Source of the DNA: Bolinopsis microptera
Lineage: Eukaryota > Ctenophora > Tentaculata > Lobata > Bolinopsidae
Assembly (NCBI RefSeq): GCF_026151205.1
Contig: NC_087081.1
Coordinates: 1 to 64,000 of the forward strand
DNA length: 64,000 bases
Reading direction: 5' to 3'
Part shown: in pieces, positions 18,950-29,607 of the stretch
Layout of the letters: every line of letters begins with the position of its first letter
How positions within the stretch are numbered: position 1 is the first letter of the stretch
Position numbers and translations under genes: made by a program
Notes under the pieces: generated by a model
Seen by the model: only the letters and a program-made list of their open reading frames with translations
What the model was told of the DNA's origin: nothing
The model's database searches: none

Positions 18950-19575
18950 GTGTTTTAGACGAGATTTGTAGTGAAATCAACAAGAAAATGTACGAGGAAA
19001 TTCAATCTTGCAATTTAATAAACAAGAGATCAGTAACGAAAGAGAAACCATGCGAATGGTTGGAAACTGTCTGTTGTATTTTGGACCAGTTCAGTATCAC
19101 CTGGCTATGGAAGGCGATACCTCTTGCAGAAGAAATTGACAAGTTGAAAAGTGAGAAGATTTCAGATCAGAGTATTATCATCGATCTTCAGAATAAGGCT
19201 ATTGAAAAAAGCAACAAACAGTTCAAATCAATGCAGAATACCGTGCAAACGGAGATGAAAAGCTACTTTTCAGTCGTTAGAAAAAGCATCAATGCTGCTT
19301 GCGCCCCAAAGAAGATCCACGCTGCAATTAAAAAAGTAGAAAACCAGATTGAGTGAAGCAAGAACGCAATCATTTATGGTCTATCAGAATCAGAGAACGA
19401 GCAACTGCTGAGTAAAGTTGAGGAGGTTCTGAATGAAATTAGTGAGAAGCCTTTAGTCAGGGACTGCTGCTGTATTGGAGCTCCGAAAGAAAATGTATCC
19501 AGACCAGTAAAGTTCACATTGAACAGTTCTGACCATGCAACACCAGTGATCAGAAACACCAGTGCAGTAGTGAAA
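18950..19575 (+). pseudogene. LINE ORF1 remnant, 5' portion (split by a later insertion)
   Basis: A frame from about 18950 gives a helical, coiled-coil-like stretch (EEIDKLKSEKISDQSIIIDL), then after one in-frame TGA (19354-19356) reads KNAIIYGLSESENEQLL and RPVKFTLNSSDHA. This is the RRM-like core of LINE ORF1 proteins, which usually have NVIIYGLPE and RPVKV motifs. The reading breaks off at about 19575 at the edge of the minus-strand LINE. Its continuation is found at 26087-26239, 6.5 kb away. Dead element. Confidence 0.75.
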
Positions 19576-21128
19576 CAAATTTAAAATTTTATCCTTTATT
19601 TTACAATCATAATATAATAATATTTATAAGCCTCCGTTTTGAAAGTTTTAAATTTTAATACATTCACATTTCTATTCAAAATTCAATTTTATGTACAAGT
19701 CAATAACTGGCCGCCAAAGCCGCGCATTCTTGAAAACAGGATTAACTTGATTATAGTTATACGACTATGTAAATTAAAAACTATCCGTGGTTTTTTCTTT
19801 TAAATAAATAAATTATAATTTTACCTAAGTCCAAAGCCAGCTTTGAAAAATTTACTATTAAATCATAATATATCGTCAACTTTAAATATTTACAATGCAA
19901 CAATTCATTAATCTGTAAACACGCGTACTCCAGCCCCTAAACGCATAAATTGTTATGCGGCGCGGCTCAAGCCGCGCACGCACGTATTATTTTATACTGT
20001 TTGCTTTCTAATAAATATCGTGCCAATGTGTACGTCTAAATTGTAAACGTTCATGTTTTGTGTAAAGTGAATCCAATTGGGACTAGTGACAAGGATAAGG
20101 ACCCAAGTGCCTGTACGGCTTTTTCGGGCCCCTGTGGACCACTACTCTTGTAATCACTCTACAACATTGAACATCTATATAATATCTACTACGTCATTTG
20201 GCAATTATTGTCATTAATCTAACTTTCTAATTAATTGCCGAGGGGGAAGAGTAAACGCTTCACATTAAAATTCAATATACAAAATTCAAAACCATCAATA
20301 CGGTATTAAATATTATGGACAAGTCTATAGATCTATTTCGTAGTCATATATTCACATGATTTGCTTTATATTATATTATCTTAATACTGTAATGAAGTAC
20401 AGTAGGATTTGTGTTTCGAGAAAGAAAGGTTGCGGTCAAATTATTAACAAAAGTAAACAAAAGTCCATCAGGGACTCCGTGGAGTCGAAAAAGGTACACG
20501 GCTGCTGTCTGGTGCTGCTAGGCATTTATTGATCAAGATGTTTTATTGTATTGATTTATAATGATTCTATTGTTCGTGACTAATCAAGTTCTAAGTGGAG
20601 GTATAAAGTGCTGCTCAAGATACTTCGTCATCTCATGTCCAGTATAATGATTAAGATAGTATACAATGCAGTTTTAGTAGTTGACCCATACAGTTAAGTC
20701 CGTCATAACTCACAATCGTTAAGTCGTCGGTCAATTGTCAAAGTCGTTGTGTGTTTATTCGTTGAGATAGCAGTAAGATAAGATGTTACGCGCGCGCGCG
20801 TTTAATCCCGTCGACGTGAAATGTGACAATGAAAACGCTACAGAATTATTATTTTCGCGCGTTACGTAGAGTTTACCAGTGTGTAATACTAGTTAACACT
20901 GGGTGTACACTGAGTGTAAGTGTAAGTTTCATATACAAGCCGTTGAATATTTCCAATTTTGAGTGTATCGTGAGCATGTTTTACAGTGCGATTGCTCGGT
21001 ACTAGTGTGTTTGTGTATATATATATATATATCATTTGTGGAGTATGGTGTAAGTAATGTTTTTGGTTGGAGTGCAGTGGTTATATGTACGAGAAAAGAT
21101 ATATGGTCATTTTAGTAACTCACATAAA
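19576..21128 (-). other. Presumed 3' untranslated region of the AlkB-SGNH LINE
   Basis: This stretch follows the ORF2 stop in the sense (minus) direction. It contains GC-rich islands such as a CGCGCGCGCG run near 20790 and an (AT)n run near 21017. It is long for a LINE 3' UTR, so other insertions could be nested in it. No separate gene was seen; the plus-strand frames at 20823-21005 and 21067-21294 are incidental. Confidence 0.45.
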
Positions 21129-24100
21129 TCAGAACTTGAGCTCATTTGTGGCAAAATTAAGCTCACACCAATCAAGTGTATCATGCTTGAATTGCAATTC
21201 TCGTAAGGCAATTTTCAATATATTCTTAAACCCGTTTGTCGGAGTATTAAAACTTATCTTACTTGATGTTTGTCGACAGCTGTTCCACATGTAGGATGAT
21301 TGGTAGATGAATTGTGAGGATGGTTGTGATGTAATGAAATAATCCTCTCGTCGTGGTGACCTGTTAAATGATGAGTACAGTGATAATGGTTCCTCTAACT
21401 TATTAATTTTGAATAGTTCTAAGAGACAAGTGTACTTGTACAGATTGTGGACCGTCAACAACCTGTGGGTTTTAAACAAGGGCTTGGAGTGTTCTTTTTG
21501 GTAAAAGTCCACCCCCAGTCTTTGCTTATCAACAGGTCGTGTTCGGGCACACGTTTTAAACTTCTCTAGGTAAGCTTCTCTATCCCCAAACAGAATTCTT
21601 ATACACTTTTTCTGTGTTTTAAAGATAGGTTCAAGTCGGTTATTGCTAATACCACCCCACACAGATATTCCAAATCCTAAATGTGATTCAAATAGAGTAT
21701 GATATAAATCCTTATAATACTGCTTTGGGACAATGTGTCGTATTCTGCACAGCTTTCCTACTTCGCATTTAAGTTTTGAGTTAAGTGACTGCGTATGTGA
21801 TTTCCAGTTAAGTTGGTCGTCAATAATAACGCCTAGAAATTTAGCTTCTTGAACTCTTTTAATAACTACATTATTTAAAGTTAGTATGTTCTCGTCATTT
21901 TCTACTTCCTCTTTGGCCCGTGAGGGTTTAAAATGAATAAAACAACATTTCTTAATGTTAATATGTAATAAGTTTAGTTTCATATACTTGTACACAAATG
22001 ATAGAACTTCATTTCCTTTTTCGTATAGTCTTTTGACACATGTGTCTTCTATAAATATGTTAGTGTCGTCGGCAAATAGTATAAACTTTCCTATAATTGA
22101 TGAGTTACGGATGTCATTAATATAAATAATAAAAAGTAAGGGACCAAGACAGCTCCCCTGCGGCACTCCATAGACTACTGGAAGTTTCTCGGATTCTTCA
22201 CCTAATACCGAGACATACTGGTATCTGTTCGACAGGTAACTTGCTATAAGGTTATTTGCATTTCCACGGATTCCATAATTTTCTAACTTATGCAGTAACT
22301 TTTCATGTGATATTGTATCAAAGGCTTTACTAAGATCAATAAATATTCCAAGAACGTGTTGTTTTTTCTTGAGGCAAGATTCTACGTGGTTCACTGAGTA
22401 ATTTAGGGCATAACTGGTCGAGTGATTTTTACGGAATCCGTACTGGTTTTCATATAAGGAGTTCTGTGAATGAAAGAAGCTGTATAATCTATTGAATATA
22501 ATCTTTTCAAATATTTTACCAAACACAGCTAGCGTTGATACAGGTCTATAGTTTTCAAGGAGTTCCTGGTTATCTTTCTTGTAAATGGGACTAATCCTTC
22601 CAACTTTAAGGTCATCTGGAAATATGCCATCTTTCATACATTCGTTATACAGTACAGTGAGTAAAGGAGTAACTATTTTAGAGGACTGCTTAATTACATG
22701 AATCGGTATGTCACTTGCCTTGCCATTTTTAAGTTCAGATATGATTTTGCTAACCTCGTCTGTTGTGCAGTCATGCATGTAAATGCTGGAAGTGTTTGAA
22801 AGCGGTAGATAATCATAGAAACTAGGTATACTGTTTATGTTAATTTGTCCAAGATCATTGTAAGCGGTATTTAGGTCAGAGGCTAATGATACAAAATATT
22901 TATTGAATTCGTTTGCTATGATCCTTCTATTTGTTATCTTAACGTTGTCTATGGTGAACAGCGGCTTTATTTCACGCCGCCGTTTACCTCTTATACGATT
23001 TATTAGTTCCCAGGTCTTTTTACTATCACCGCTATTTTCAGCAAATTTACCAGAGAAGTATTCTGTTTTCACAGTTTGACGTGTTTTCTTTAGGACTTTT
23101 CTGTATTCTTTGTAGATAAGGTAGCGACTACGTTTTAGTGAGCATTCAGGGCACTGGCAAATGCCGCCCTTGTTATCAGTTTCCCCGAGTTTACATTTTC
23201 TATTTCTTATCTCAACCCAATTTTCGTACAGTTTATGCTGATTATTAATTGAGCAAATGAGACCGGGAGTTATCCAAGGGTTAACCTGAACAGTTCTCTT
23301 AGAGGTTTTCGGGGTCTCTAATTTAAACGATTTTTCGACGCAGTTTTTGTAAGTGTCATGGAATTCAGTAAAGTTATGGATTGTTTTAGTTTTAAGCTCA
23401 TCTTCAAGATCCACTAGGAAGCCGTTAACATTTGATTGACAGAAGTCGTAATATTGTTTAAAAGAAGTTTTTTCAGAGTTGACTTCAACATTCCAGTTAA
23501 ATGTGTTAAAAATAGGTGAGTGATGAGTTATTCGTTCTTTTAGGGTGCCTGAAGTAATCACATTCTCAATATCGTTAGTAATAATGTTATCTATGCAGGA
23601 TGCTTTACAGCCTGGTTTTTCGTGGGTAACAATAGATATTAACGGACAAAATCCTCTACTGAATAATATTTCTTCATATTTTTGAACATTTTTGTTATCT
23701 TTATCATGAAGATCGATATTAAAGTCTCCAGCTAGATAACTAAACTTCGGCATGTGATCAAGAAGGTTAGAAAGTTCAACTAGAGCTTGGGAAATACAGC
23801 CACTTGGTGGACGATACAAAACACCTACATTAACAGGTTGATCTTCGTTACTTAATGATAAGACAAGTATTTCTAGATGTTCTGTGACTTGTGATATATT
23901 CTCAATTACAGTAGCATTTAATTTATCGTCAACATAAAGGGCTACTCCAGTGCCCTTTTGTTTGTTAGGTGCTGTGTCCTGATAGTAACTATTATAACCG
24001 TCGAGCTGAAATAGATTGCTTAATTCTTTTCCAGTGTTGGTTTCAGCTAGGGCTATTACGGAGAATTTTGTTTTGTACCTACAGGTTTCAATGGCAAGGT

Positions 24101-24482
24101 TGTCAAAATTTGATTTATTTCCATCAATATTTTGAAAGAGAATAGATGATTGTTTCTTTACTTGGTTGCAGAGAATATTTGTAAGGTCAGATGCAGTGTA
24201 TGAGTTACAATCATTTAAAGTATTTGAGATTTTGGTTGTGTATTCGTCTAGGTTGTTGTCGTCGTCGTCATTGTCAGTGAGTAGTTTAAATGGGTTGTAT
24301 TTAACCTTGTCTAAATGGATACAACGAGTACAGTAAAACTCATTAGATTGGCTATTTGGATTTGATTTGCGATAGCATTTATGGTGCATTATGCAGTCAC
24401 AGTGAAAACATTCAACTATTGTTTGGCCGATGACTATGTTCTTAGAACAGACAGGACATACCTCCTTAATGAGGGGAGTCAT
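21129..24482 (-). CDS. LINE ORF2: PHD finger, endonuclease, reverse transcriptase (1117 aa)
   Basis: Replication protein of the LINE. Residues 9-54 hold a C4HC3 PHD-like zinc finger (CPVC, CFHC, HHKC, YCTRC). An apurinic-type endonuclease follows: FQNIDGN near 115, ALAETN near 144, YRPPSG, AGDFNID near 250, DNIITND and ITHHSPI near 320. The last motif normally reads SDHxPI, so the residue before the catalytic His is His instead of Asp. The RT domain begins around 600 with YRPVST, then GFRKNHST, FIDLSKAFDTI, GVPQGSCLGPLLF, the catalytic FADD near 800, and LGVIIDDQLNW. The C-terminus is the usual LINE tail. The endonuclease would nick the target and the RT prime cDNA there. The start ATG overlaps the ORF1 stop as ATGA. 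No stops or frameshifts, so it may be active. Confidence 0.95.
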   Translation of the reverse strand: MTPLIKEVCPVCSKNIVIGQTIVECFHCDCIMHHKCYRKSNPNSQSNEFYCTRCIHLDKVKYNPFKLLTDNDDDDNNLDEYTTKISNTLNDCNSYTASDLTNILCNQVKKQSSILFQNIDGNKSNFDNLAIETCRYKTKFSVIALAETNTGKELSNLFQLDGYNSYYQDTAPNKQKGTGVALYVDDKLNATVIENISQVTEHLEILVLSLSNEDQPVNVGVLYRPPSGCISQALVELSNLLDHMPKFSYLAGDFNIDLHDKDNKNVQKYEEILFSRGFCPLISIVTHEKPGCKASCIDNIITNDIENVITSGTLKERITHHSPIFNTFNWNVEVNSEKTSFKQYYDFCQSNVNGFLVDLEDELKTKTIHNFTEFHDTYKNCVEKSFKLETPKTSKRTVQVNPWITPGLICSINNQHKLYENWVEIRNRKCKLGETDNKGGICQCPECSLKRSRYLIYKEYRKVLKKTRQTVKTEYFSGKFAENSGDSKKTWELINRIRGKRRREIKPLFTIDNVKITNRRIIANEFNKYFVSLASDLNTAYNDLGQININSIPSFYDYLPLSNTSSIYMHDCTTDEVSKIISELKNGKASDIPIHVIKQSSKIVTPLLTVLYNECMKDGIFPDDLKVGRISPIYKKDNQELLENYRPVSTLAVFGKIFEKIIFNRLYSFFHSQNSLYENQYGFRKNHSTSYALNYSVNHVESCLKKKQHVLGIFIDLSKAFDTISHEKLLHKLENYGIRGNANNLIASYLSNRYQYVSVLGEESEKLPVVYGVPQGSCLGPLLFIIYINDIRNSSIIGKFILFADDTNIFIEDTCVKRLYEKGNEVLSFVYKYMKLNLLHINIKKCCFIHFKPSRAKEEVENDENILTLNNVVIKRVQEAKFLGVIIDDQLNWKSHTQSLNSKLKCEVGKLCRIRHIVPKQYYKDLYHTLFESHLGFGISVWGGISNNRLEPIFKTQKKCIRILFGDREAYLEKFKTCARTRPVDKQRLGVDFYQKEHSKPLFKTHRLLTVHNLYKYTCLLELFKINKLEEPLSLYSSFNRSPRREDYFITSQPSSQFIYQSSYMWNSCRQTSSKISFNTPTNGFKNILKIALRELQFKHDTLDWCELNFATNELKF

Positions 24483-26083
24483 GGTTGGTAACCATCCACG
24501 TGACCCTGACTAGCAGCAGCAGGAACAACAGGACCAGTTTCTCTTCCAGCAGTCGCATCCCTGTAGGATCTATCGTCTACCCTTGTGGACCTCCTCTTCC
24601 TTTTGTCGATACCACCGTTAATCCTGAGAAGAACAGTGTTACGAATAAATTGACCTAACTTTGCTAGTCCCCTCCAGTTGAGGTGAAGGAAGTCCGGTTT
24701 TTGGTATTTGTTGAGGTCGCGAGAGAGAGAGCGGTCAAGGAGACCATCCCTATCACAGAACTCATCAAATCCATCCACATAACTGACACCAAAATTGGAC
24801 GGGAGCAGCCTACATCGAATCAAACTGTTAAAGTATATAAGCTTTCTATTTAAATCAGCACGTTTAGAAGGAATTGTTGGACAAACATATACATGCACAC
24901 CCGGATTAATAGATTGAATCTGGGCAATTTTTGAAACTAGATGGTTGTAGATTATATCAATATCGTTTTGGCTTTTTACATCTGTTTGTTTCAGGTCATT
25001 AACCCCACACAATATAACACAGTTTCTATAGCCACAGGACACATAAGGATCAATGCTATCGACAGTTGGGGCAAAGAATCGTTTTCCAGGAAGCCATTTG
25101 CCGAATGACTTGGCAGGATCAGAACCGAATTTCAGTCCGCCGGTGTTCGAGTCCCCAATGATACATGTAGCGTTTCTATTCAGGGAACTGACTGATCTCA
25201 ATGTTATACTGTAGCGCAGCCCAGTTATCTCGCCTGCATCGATACGATGGTGGAACAGTGCTTGGCTACGACGAGTCATTACATATAATGATCCTGGGCC
25301 ACATAGTTGCTTGTGCTCATCAATACCTGTACTAGCATCAGAGAAAGAAACATGACATGCAGTACCAAGAGAGACTGTAAAGATACTTGATTCCGGGTGG
25401 ATAGAAGGCTCGTTATCAGAGTGTCTAGGCAAGGTGCTGCTTGTGCCGTCAAACCGATTCACCAAACAGCTGTTAACCTGAGGTTGGTCACCTGAACAAA
25501 ACTCACTGTTGATTCTGTCGATGAGTTTTCTCAAGGGTGGTGGTATTGCCTTTGGTGTCTTGGACGACTTAGATCCAGGATAATCGTACCGTTCCCCATA
25601 TGATAGGCAGGAGCGTTCGTTTTCAATTTTGAAGTCTGTGCTGCTCAAATCAAATAGGTCAACTAGTTCTTCCGCAGTCTTCTGATCTATAAAATCGTTT
25701 TTGAACAGTTCCACAGGTTTCTGCTCATGATGAGGTGGCTGCAAAAGGACAGGTGGTGCTGGAGGACGAGGATGCTGTGCAGGAGGTAGGTTGGGAGGAA
25801 TGCAAGGACCAGGGTTATGCAATGGCTGTATAGAACTTATAGACTGTTTTAGTTCAGCAATGCCTGCAGCTACAGTGGGCTCATTTGCAGAAAGTGCGGT
25901 GAGTTGTTCTGAGATGCTCTTCAGAAACTGCTCAGATGAGTCTGTGGATGGGGATGATTCAGGGGAAGGTCTAGATGCTAAAAGTTTAAGGTCCCTCTGT
26001 AGTTCAGCAATGTTGGTATTTATTGATTCTAATGATTTGTCATGGAGCTTTATTTCATTATTTAGGTCATTAAGGGAGTTCTC
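24479..26083 (-). CDS. LINE ORF1: coiled coil, ALKBH2/3-like dioxygenase, SGNH hydrolase (5'-truncated)
   Basis: The frame is open from 26083, upstream of the first possible TTG-type start at 25822, and no ATG is seen in the upper part, so the N-terminus is lost. From the N-terminal side: a coiled-coil stretch (NIAELQRDLKLLAS); a Pro-rich linker; an AlkB-like domain with YGERYDYPGS, VNRFDG, the iron ligands HSD (in LPRHSDNEPS) and His in ALFHHRID, and the 2-oxoglutarate pair RYSITLR (R-x5-R), which is the ALKBH2/3 pattern; then an SGNH hydrolase with GDSNTGG (block I), CGVNDL (block III) and DFLHLN (block V Asp-His). All catalytic residues of both enzymes appear present. Known: esterase-bearing ORF1 in CR1/L2 LINEs; AlkB proteins reverse N-alkyl damage or demethylate RNA. 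Inferred: a role on the element's own RNA or cDNA. It ends HVDGYQP at the ATGA junction. Confidence 0.9.
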   Translation of the reverse strand, partial: ENSLNDLNNEIKLHDKSLESINTNIAELQRDLKLLASRPSPESSPSTDSSEQFLKSISEQLTALSANEPTVAAGIAELKQSISSIQPLHNPGPCIPPNLPPAQHPRPPAPPVLLQPPHHEQKPVELFKNDFIDQKTAEELVDLFDLSSTDFKIENERSCLSYGERYDYPGSKSSKTPKAIPPPLRKLIDRINSEFCSGDQPQVNSCLVNRFDGTSSTLPRHSDNEPSIHPESSIFTVSLGTACHVSFSDASTGIDEHKQLCGPGSLYVMTRRSQALFHHRIDAGEITGLRYSITLRSVSSLNRNATCIIGDSNTGGLKFGSDPAKSFGKWLPGKRFFAPTVDSIDPYVSCGYRNCVILCGVNDLKQTDVKSQNDIDIIYNHLVSKIAQIQSINPGVHVYVCPTIPSKRADLNRKLIYFNSLIRCRLLPSNFGVSYVDGFDEFCDRDGLLDRSLSRDLNKYQKPDFLHLNWRGLAKLGQFIRNTVLLRINGGIDKRKRRSTRVDDRSYRDATAGRETGPVVPAAASQGHVDGYQP

Positions 26084-26086
26084 TTA

Positions 26087-26407: not shown

Positions 26408-26445
26408 CAATAAATGTATCCTTGTATCCTTGTATCCTTGTATCC
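26408..26445 (+). repeat. LINE-type 3' tail of TTGTATCC units
   Basis: AATAAATGTATCC is followed by three further TTGTATCC octamers. An AATAAA signal followed by a short octamer microsatellite is a common 3' end of CR1-like LINEs, so an element probably ends here. Which element it belongs to is not certain, because an RT remnant follows directly. Confidence 0.55.
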
Positions 26446-26447
26446 TA

Positions 26448-29480: not shown

Positions 29481-29504
29481 TCCACACCAAGAGTATTTGA
29501 AACC

Positions 29505-29607
29505 CAATTCTCGCGAAACCCAATTCTCGCGAAACCTAATTCTCGCGAAACCTAATTCTCGCGAAACCTAATTCTCGCGAAACCTAATTCTCGGGAAACC
29601 TAATTCT
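29505..29607. repeat. 17-bp minisatellite
   Basis: About six tandem copies of CCTAATTCTCGCGAAA directly after the Penelope-like remnant. The CG-containing TCGCGA core is conserved in all but the last copy (TCGGGA). Confidence 0.85.

Follow-up and report, generated by a model that had tools for sequence, protein, structure and literature searches.

Some plant RNA viruses carry AlkB domains that are thought to act on the viruses' own RNA, but these are RNA viruses and not transposons. In the literature searched, the nearest precedents for the element described here are an orchid Gypsy element with an AlkB domain and SymbioLINE-Dnmt of Symbiodinium. Here we analyse a stretch of 64,000 nucleotides from the ctenophore Bolinopsis microptera (the window; all genome-wide comparisons were made within the same 264.65-Mb genome), which contains on its minus strand a copy of a long interspersed nuclear element (LINE) whose first open reading frame (ORF1) is predicted to encode an AlkB-type dioxygenase followed by an SGNH-like hydrolase. 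The Gypsy element (PMC9289625) is likewise an AlkB-bearing retroelement, whose suggested target is the element's own RNA or that of the cell, but it is a long terminal repeat (LTR) element with the domain in an additional ORF, its AlkB is of the ALKBH5-like N6-methyladenosine (m6A) type, and the screen of that report detected it in no genus but Phalaenopsis. SymbioLINE-Dnmt and SymbioDIRS-Dnmt3 (PMC5890265) resemble the ctenophore case in that a base-modifying enzyme stands in a LINE ORF1 under purifying selection and in that, within one genome, another class of element acquired an enzyme from that family too. However, SymbioLINE-Dnmt carries a methyl writer and not an eraser, its host is a dinoflagellate, and no AlkB occurs in the main text of that report. 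According to the accounts of their ORF1 types, CR1/L2-type LINEs (types III and IV; ZfL2-1) share with the ctenophore LINE a PHD or SGNH domain in ORF1 and an APE-type endonuclease together with a reverse transcriptase (RT) in ORF2, whereas in the ctenophore LINE an AlkB domain lies ahead of SGNH, PHD and SGNH occur in the same ORF1, and the host is a ctenophore. The zebrafish SGNH esterase binds lipids, and LINE ORF1p is presented as a ribonucleoprotein (RNP) protein in the same report (PMC3905857). In the classification of 448 Jockey-superfamily elements (PMC4120745) the esterase type is confined to vertebrate groups and "AlkB" appears nowhere in the main text, and the AlkB passages of PMC11294593, PMC10161547 and PMC6991124 hold no precedent. 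A preliminary description of this DNA, made from the letters of the window, had known of no LINE ORF1 with an AlkB domain, and the literature searched (mostly open-access, with Repbase outside the search) yielded, among the records listed, neither a LINE nor a Helitron with AlkB. A scan of IMG/VR with an alignment of the ORF1s (A1, see below) returned 93 matches to the pattern, none of them a relative.

The preliminary description had taken the open frame at 24479..26083 as ORF1. Exactly there the minus strand is open over 534 codons plus stop, as shown by translation, and the plus strand of the same stretch has 27 stops. The frame thus stands, but as an ORF1 it is incomplete: the copy has lost about 659 bp from the 5' end, and with them the start codon as well as 178 N-terminal residues, which in full-length relatives include the PHD finger. 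The full-length copy L009, to which the window copy is 99.7% identical across 6,518 bp (blastn), measures about 7.19 kb, and the ORF1 frame has its first ATG 127 bp in; its common segment begins at 1579 in comparison with seven copies, at 1603 with L026 and at 1541 with L007, and ends at about 8765. Endonuclease and RT domains in ORF2, dispersed copies, 5' truncation and a common 3' end identify the sequence at 19568-26085 as a two-ORF APE-type LINE, i.e., a non-LTR retrotransposon. The motifs from which two enzymes had been proposed (HSD, a downstream His, RYSITLR, GDS, GVND and D-x-x-H) are all present and map as follows:

19568..26085, minus strand: 5'-truncated LINE copy with about 6.5 kb of the roughly 7.2-kb element (blastn against genome copies)
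24479..26083, minus strand: ORF1 remainder, 534 aa, without the start codon of full-length ORF1
25739..26083, minus strand: ORF1 linker, residues 1-115 of the remainder, with a proline-rich end (translation; no domain match in Pfam)
25196..25618, minus strand: AlkB-type 2-oxoglutarate (2OG)-Fe(II) dioxygenase domain, residues 156-296 (Pfam, 3.4e-16; profile match to ALKBH3)
25415..25423, minus strand: HSD iron ligands (invariant in alignment A1 and, as H-x-D, in alignment A2)
25247..25249, minus strand: distal iron-ligand His (alignments A1 and A2)
25196..25216, minus strand: RYSITLR, the R-x5-R 2OG-binding motif (alignments A1 and A2)
24614..25174, minus strand: SGNH/GDSL hydrolase-like domain, outer limits by eye (Pfam, 2.4e-6, below cut-off; weak profile matches to SGNH enzymes)
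24668-25057, minus strand: Pfam-matched part of the SGNH-like domain, residues 343-472 (PF13472)
25148..25156, minus strand: GDS, SGNH block I with the nucleophile Ser (alignment A1)
24995..25006, minus strand: GVND, SGNH block III (alignment A1)
24683..24694, minus strand: D-x-x-H, SGNH block V (alignment A1)

The AlkB domain (PF13532, 2OG-FeII_Oxy_2) reaches 60.5 bits in the window ORF1 at a cut-off of 31.2 (E 3.4e-16), and the second domain is termed SGNH-like because its PF13472 (Lipase_GDSL_2) score lies below the curated cut-off. The proposed LINE ORF1 with both domains in one frame is supported: AlkB is assigned by Pfam, and the SGNH-like part has invariant catalytic residues along with a Pfam match below the cut-off. 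These residues were followed in alignment A1, which consists of 15 rows, the window ORF1 and 14 full-length ORF1s, the latter drawn from 20 genome regions; left out were L011 and L027 as near-duplicates, L018 with a different N-terminus, the shortened L019 and L022, and the broken L028. The rows are 41-100% identical to L009, and at E up to 0.1 Pfam finds PF13532 in 15/15, PF13472 in 14/15 and PHD in 6/15 of them. In L009 numbering, H399, D401, H457, R468 and R474 of AlkB as well as D489, S490, N540, D541, D642 and H645 of SGNH are constant in all 15 rows, the Gly preceding D489 being replaced by Ser in two. The eight putative metal-ligand positions of the PHD finger are constant in each of the 14 rows that cover them. 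Sequence comparison thus shows the predicted architecture of the full-length ORF1 to be PHD finger, linker, ALKBH2/3-like dioxygenase and SGNH-like hydrolase. A profile of the SGNH part has weak matches in the PDB (0.0046 and up), and 4c1b, the code given for the ZfL2-1 esterase in PMC3905857, is absent among the seven matches listed; therefore, descent from that esterase is not supported by the SGNH profile.

The window ORF1 gave 1,401 first-look candidates in the genome, of which 81 were scored, and 82 stretches were listed including the window's own. The matched stretch is free of stops in 73 of the 82, many belong to frames some 690-750 aa long, and they group at about 99, 81, 75, 50, 47 and 44% identity with few in between. 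Within the window's own subfamily the copies are 99-100% identical, which shows that the element is, as judged from its sequence, young. The ratio of nonsynonymous to synonymous substitution rates (dN/dS) was calculated after Nei-Gojobori for the AlkB part, with eight pairs tried. It is 0.159 for L009/L010, 0.147 for L013/L016, 0.123 for L016/L021 (few changes), 0.077 for L024/L025, 0.166 for L040/L043 (dS 1.4, near saturation) and 0.132 for the Helitron-type loci L039/L042 described below; in L020/L052 and L009/L012 the synonymous sites are saturated, hence no ratio. All six values are far below 1, the widest bootstrap interval reaching up to 0.49, and as far as can be read from substitutions the AlkB domain is thereby shown to be kept by purifying selection. 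That further copies keep the AlkB domain, on which the preliminary description had made its claim depend, is thus borne out by the residues invariant in 15/15 rows and by a dN/dS of 0.077-0.166 in six of eight pairs. A chance frame, neutral decay and a single odd copy are ruled out by the open copies listed, the invariant catalytic residues and the low dN/dS. The ORF1s of L013 and L016, two copies of one subfamily, differ in a mosaic manner, the proportion of synonymous differences (pS) being 0.02 in the N-terminal 322 codons, 0.25 in the AlkB part and 0.75 (saturated) in the SGNH part, a pattern suggestive of recombination or template switching among subfamilies.

AlkB domains are not confined to the window's own type of LINE. 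A genome scan with PF13532 gave 587 first-look candidates, the best 150 of which were scored and all lie above the cut-off; MT-A70 gives seven matches for comparison. Upstream of at least 24 of 150 listed RVT_1 places (from 6,502 candidates), on their strand and no more than 5 kb away, there is a listed AlkB, compared with one pair at the same distance downstream among those listed. The 24 pairs are a lower bound, since both lists hold the best matches only and the window's own family has scores too low to appear among the AlkB rows. ORF1 loci of other families were read at L040, L041, L043, L044, L051 and L052, the first four of which were picked for their AlkB match and are uninformative about frequency. 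L040, L043 and L044 have AlkB above the Pfam cut-off together with Lipase_GDSL_2 below it, and L040 and L044 are followed by ORF2s of 998 aa (L047) and 997 aa (L048), respectively. L041 has AlkB above the cut-off, SGNH-like motifs recognised by eye only, and a different LINE ORF2 behind it (L049). L052 is like L020 from PHD through SGNH, with 53% identity over 689 aa (blastp), and in L051 AlkB and SGNH parts are seen by eye across two frames, neither of which holds the H-x-D part. As the ORF2s of the three LINE groups (A-E, F and G) are only about 24-31% identical to each other, AlkB with SGNH-like sequence is, on domain matches, present in a second, divergent LINE group and, by eye, in a third. 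The SGNH part of group F matches the window-type SGNH at 94.2% probability in profile comparison, over columns that exclude block I. Three RT places without a listed AlkB nearby (L051, L052, L054) have AlkB sequence at two and no ORF1 at one. That every LINE here has an AlkB ORF1 is not borne out at L054, where 1.76 kb upstream of the RT (in a frame of 1439 aa) hold no frame of at least 90 aa; at least one LINE family may therefore be without such an ORF1, as judged from this short stretch. At L026:700-1365 on the minus strand, AlkB and an SGNH-like start of another LINE family adjoin a full-length window-type copy in antisense orientation.

A second element class carries the same pair of domains. 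L039 together with L050 is part of one 3,321-aa frame, which contains in this order an SGNH-like part (PF13472, 8.5e-7, below cut-off), proline/alanine repeats, AlkB (2.2e-21), Helitron_like_N (7.7e-23) and PIF1 (4.4e-22); the order of SGNH and AlkB is the reverse of that in the LINEs. With HUH Rep and Pif1 helicase in one frame the element is, by its protein domains, a Helitron. L042 was counted as Helitron-type from its AlkB alone, which is 82% identical to that of L039 over 307 aa. A genome scan with Helitron_like_N (51/51 candidates scored, 41 rows) was compared with the best 150 of 587 AlkB candidates. For nine of the 41 rows, which fall at eight different places, a listed AlkB lies no more than 5 kb upstream on their strand, and for none does one lie within 5 kb downstream or on the other strand; at six of the eight places the AlkB and Helitron_like_N rows give an identical open-frame length. 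The idea that AlkB is general among the Helitrons of this genome is rejected, 32 of the 41 rows, the best-scoring ones included, being without a listed AlkB within 5 kb. The SGNH part of the Helitron shows weak profile likeness to the LINE SGNH (47.4%, E 1.9e-4). In L039 and L042 long proline/alanine and serine-rich repeat arrays flank AlkB and differ between the two loci.

For the comparison with known AlkB proteins, alignment A2 combined 15 element domains, of which 12 come from LINE ORF1s, two from Helitron-type loci and one from a LINE fragment. Identity to the reference goes down to 20%, and 15 columns are invariant, including H85, D87, H143, R154 and R160, so that the iron and 2OG residues (H-x-D, His, R-x5-R) are kept in 15/15 domains. 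Searched against the PDB, the A2 profile matches ALKBH3 (2.8e-24), ALKBH2 (3.2e-19), ALKBH8 (1.6e-11), bacterial AlkB (1.4e-10), ALKBH1 (7.8e-4) and ALKBH5 (8.7e-4), and FTO is absent from its 42 matches at E up to 0.01; the best matches of the window AlkB as a single sequence are ALKBH2 (0.03) and ALKBH6 (0.04). The element AlkB is therefore, by profile comparison, ALKBH2/3-like with ALKBH3 nearest, in agreement with the type named in the preliminary description, and its assignment to AlkB holds both in Pfam, where PF13532 is above the cut-off, and in this ranking of ALKBH3 first and ALKBH2 second. The genome also has host-gene-like AlkB frames, L046, with a PDB match to ALKBH3 of 2.5e-39, as well as L045 and L053, the latter two with no SGNH or RT match in the stretches read. 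Among the matches listed (blastp) the host-like frames are 23-33% identical to the element AlkBs of groups F and G, the Helitron-type loci and the L026 fragment. In a tree of 21 AlkB rows, the domains of the PHD-type LINEs group with the L026 fragment (support 99/94), the two Helitron-type rows with each other (99/98) and the F group, drawn open, at 84/86, and L041 joins, on very long branches, the three host-like frames (98/96). Joins of this kind are possibly false, and the tree is compatible with one capture as well as with several.

ALKBH3, ALKBH2 and AlkB remove N1-methyladenine (m1A) and N3-methylcytosine (m3C). These marks arise mainly in single strands and block reverse transcriptases as well as DNA polymerases, and Helitrons move through single-stranded DNA. 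Because of the likeness to ALKBH3, the polymerase-blocking nature of these single-strand marks and the presence of the domain in both a LINE copied from RNA and a Helitron moving as single-stranded DNA, we infer, at about even chances, that the ORF1p-borne AlkB clears m1A and m3C from single-stranded nucleic acid of the element, with the SGNH domain serving lipid contact. ORF1p would coat the element's RNA, and its AlkB domain would oxidatively remove N1-methyladenine and N3-methylcytosine from this single-stranded RNA and perhaps also demethylate the first-strand cDNA, which would keep target-primed reverse transcription unblocked; the methyl groups could stem from chemical damage or from enzymes of the host. 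The SGNH domain would tie the particle to membranes or lipids, as has been proposed for the zebrafish LINE esterase (PMC3905857). The presence of AlkB and SGNH-like domains in a Helitron would speak for action on single-stranded nucleic acid more than for action on the fate of mRNA alone.

Several observations weigh against clearing of m1A and m3C by such a particle. At such a distance, likeness to ALKBH3 by sequence leaves the substrate unfixed, and the Helitron rows without a listed AlkB are the larger part of those found. PF13472 stays below its cut-off in the window ORF1 (28.6 bits, E 2.4e-6, cut-off 32.9) and at every tested locus beyond the window too. LINE group A4 (three sequences) appears, by eye, to read SSS where GDS stands, and its SGNH chemistry may thus be altered. 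Single-sequence AlphaFold models of the two domains have a mean predicted local distance difference test score (pLDDT) of 33.7 (AlkB) and 38.0, too low for a fold such as the double-stranded beta-helix to be read from them. Moreover, the one tested element-borne AlkB in the literature searched, that of the Phalaenopsis orchid Gypsy element, is an m6A demethylase in vitro (PMC9289625).

This last result also favours an m6A eraser used as counter-defence, in which AlkB would strip host-written N6-methyladenosine off the element transcripts as proposed for the orchid element, and the host does have an MT-A70-family sequence, i.e., of the m6A-writer family (seven exon matches, 8/8 candidates scored). 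However, ALKBH5 is matched by the A2 profile at 8.7e-4 compared with 2.8e-24 for ALKBH3, FTO is absent among the 42 matches, and the copying of Helitrons uses no RNA intermediate, so that we regard this explanation as rather unlikely. Less can be said for a target in host chromatin or genomic DNA, where the enzyme, together with the PHD finger, would open or de-modify target chromatin so that the element can insert or be expressed. The PHD finger in ORF1 (Pfam 6/15, the eight putative metal-ligand positions invariant in 14 rows) speaks for it, but in LINE groups F and G and in the Helitron the stretches that were scanned hold AlkB and no PHD match in Pfam, and this target is considered improbable. 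AlkB might also be retained as a nucleic-acid-binding or structural module whose catalysis is dispensable, as the H448 mutant of the orchid AlkB lost its activity and retained RNA binding (PMC9289625); with iron and 2OG ligands invariant in 15/15 domains down to 20% identity, this is quite improbable. A mere passenger, i.e., a piece of a host gene caught by transduction and open only through the youth of the copies, accords with the 99-100% identity within the window subfamily, but is next to inconceivable and refuted as far as sequence can do so by the equal architecture of subfamilies at 41-48% ORF1 identity, an AlkB dN/dS far below 1 and AlkB in LINE groups with ORF2s about 24-31% identical.

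The ctenophore elements add a nucleic-acid demethylase-like enzyme to the known parts of LINEs and Helitrons, and they may in this way protect or unmask their own nucleic acids. Tentatively, and with more doubt than confidence, AlkB and SGNH can be seen as a portable two-enzyme set that unrelated transposons, i.e., several LINE groups and some Helitrons, gained and kept under selection in this ctenophore lineage. This would point to a common pressure, namely methylation of single-stranded nucleic acid, possibly by an undescribed enzymatic host defence which the elements undo. Ctenophores may be the sister phylum to all other animals. If the enzyme is active, it becomes testable whether methylation of transposon RNA or single-stranded DNA limits transposition and is erased by transposons. 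Counts of AlkB genes in such genomes must in any case tell host genes from element copies.

The remaining parts of the window copy lie downstream of ORF1:

21129..24482, minus strand: ORF2, 1117 aa (ATGA, the start codon overlapping the ORF1 stop)
24360..24467, minus strand: zinc-finger-like Cys/His stretch at the ORF2 N-terminus (Prok-RING_1 5.6e-4, C1 0.023, PHD_2 0.025; all below Pfam cut-offs)
23571..24062, minus strand: endonuclease/exonuclease/phosphatase (EEP, APE-type) endonuclease domain of ORF2 (Exo_endo_phos 3e-4, below Pfam cut-off)
21822..22580, minus strand: RT domain of ORF2 (RVT_1 2e-36, Pfam)
19568..21128, minus strand: 3' untranslated region, about 1.56 kb, ending with one unit of a short 3'-terminal repeat

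This repeat is present with one unit in the window copy and, by eye, with two in L009 and L026; CR1 elements likewise have short 3'-terminal repeats. About 330 bp past the 5' junction of the LINE copy, at 26415-26447, lies a short tandem array with an 8-base TTGTATCC-like unit, and a further short array with a 16-base AATTCTCGCGAAACCT-like unit is found at 29500-29600. Contigs C1-C13, each 15-26 Mb in length, make up 97.5% of the genome. Among its ionotropic glutamate receptor (iGluR) frames, L038 matches the ligand-binding domain of the Mnemiopsis receptor ML032222a at 1.9e-128, ahead of a glutamate receptor kainate-like protein (4zdm) at 3.8e-65, which places the host as a ctenophore near Mnemiopsis; the iGluR frames L034 and L036 were less informative. 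In all, PF10613 matches 32 iGluR sequences, of which ten lie in open frames of 900-990 aa, with tandem examples at C12:11.78-11.81 Mb and C3:15.86-15.94 Mb.

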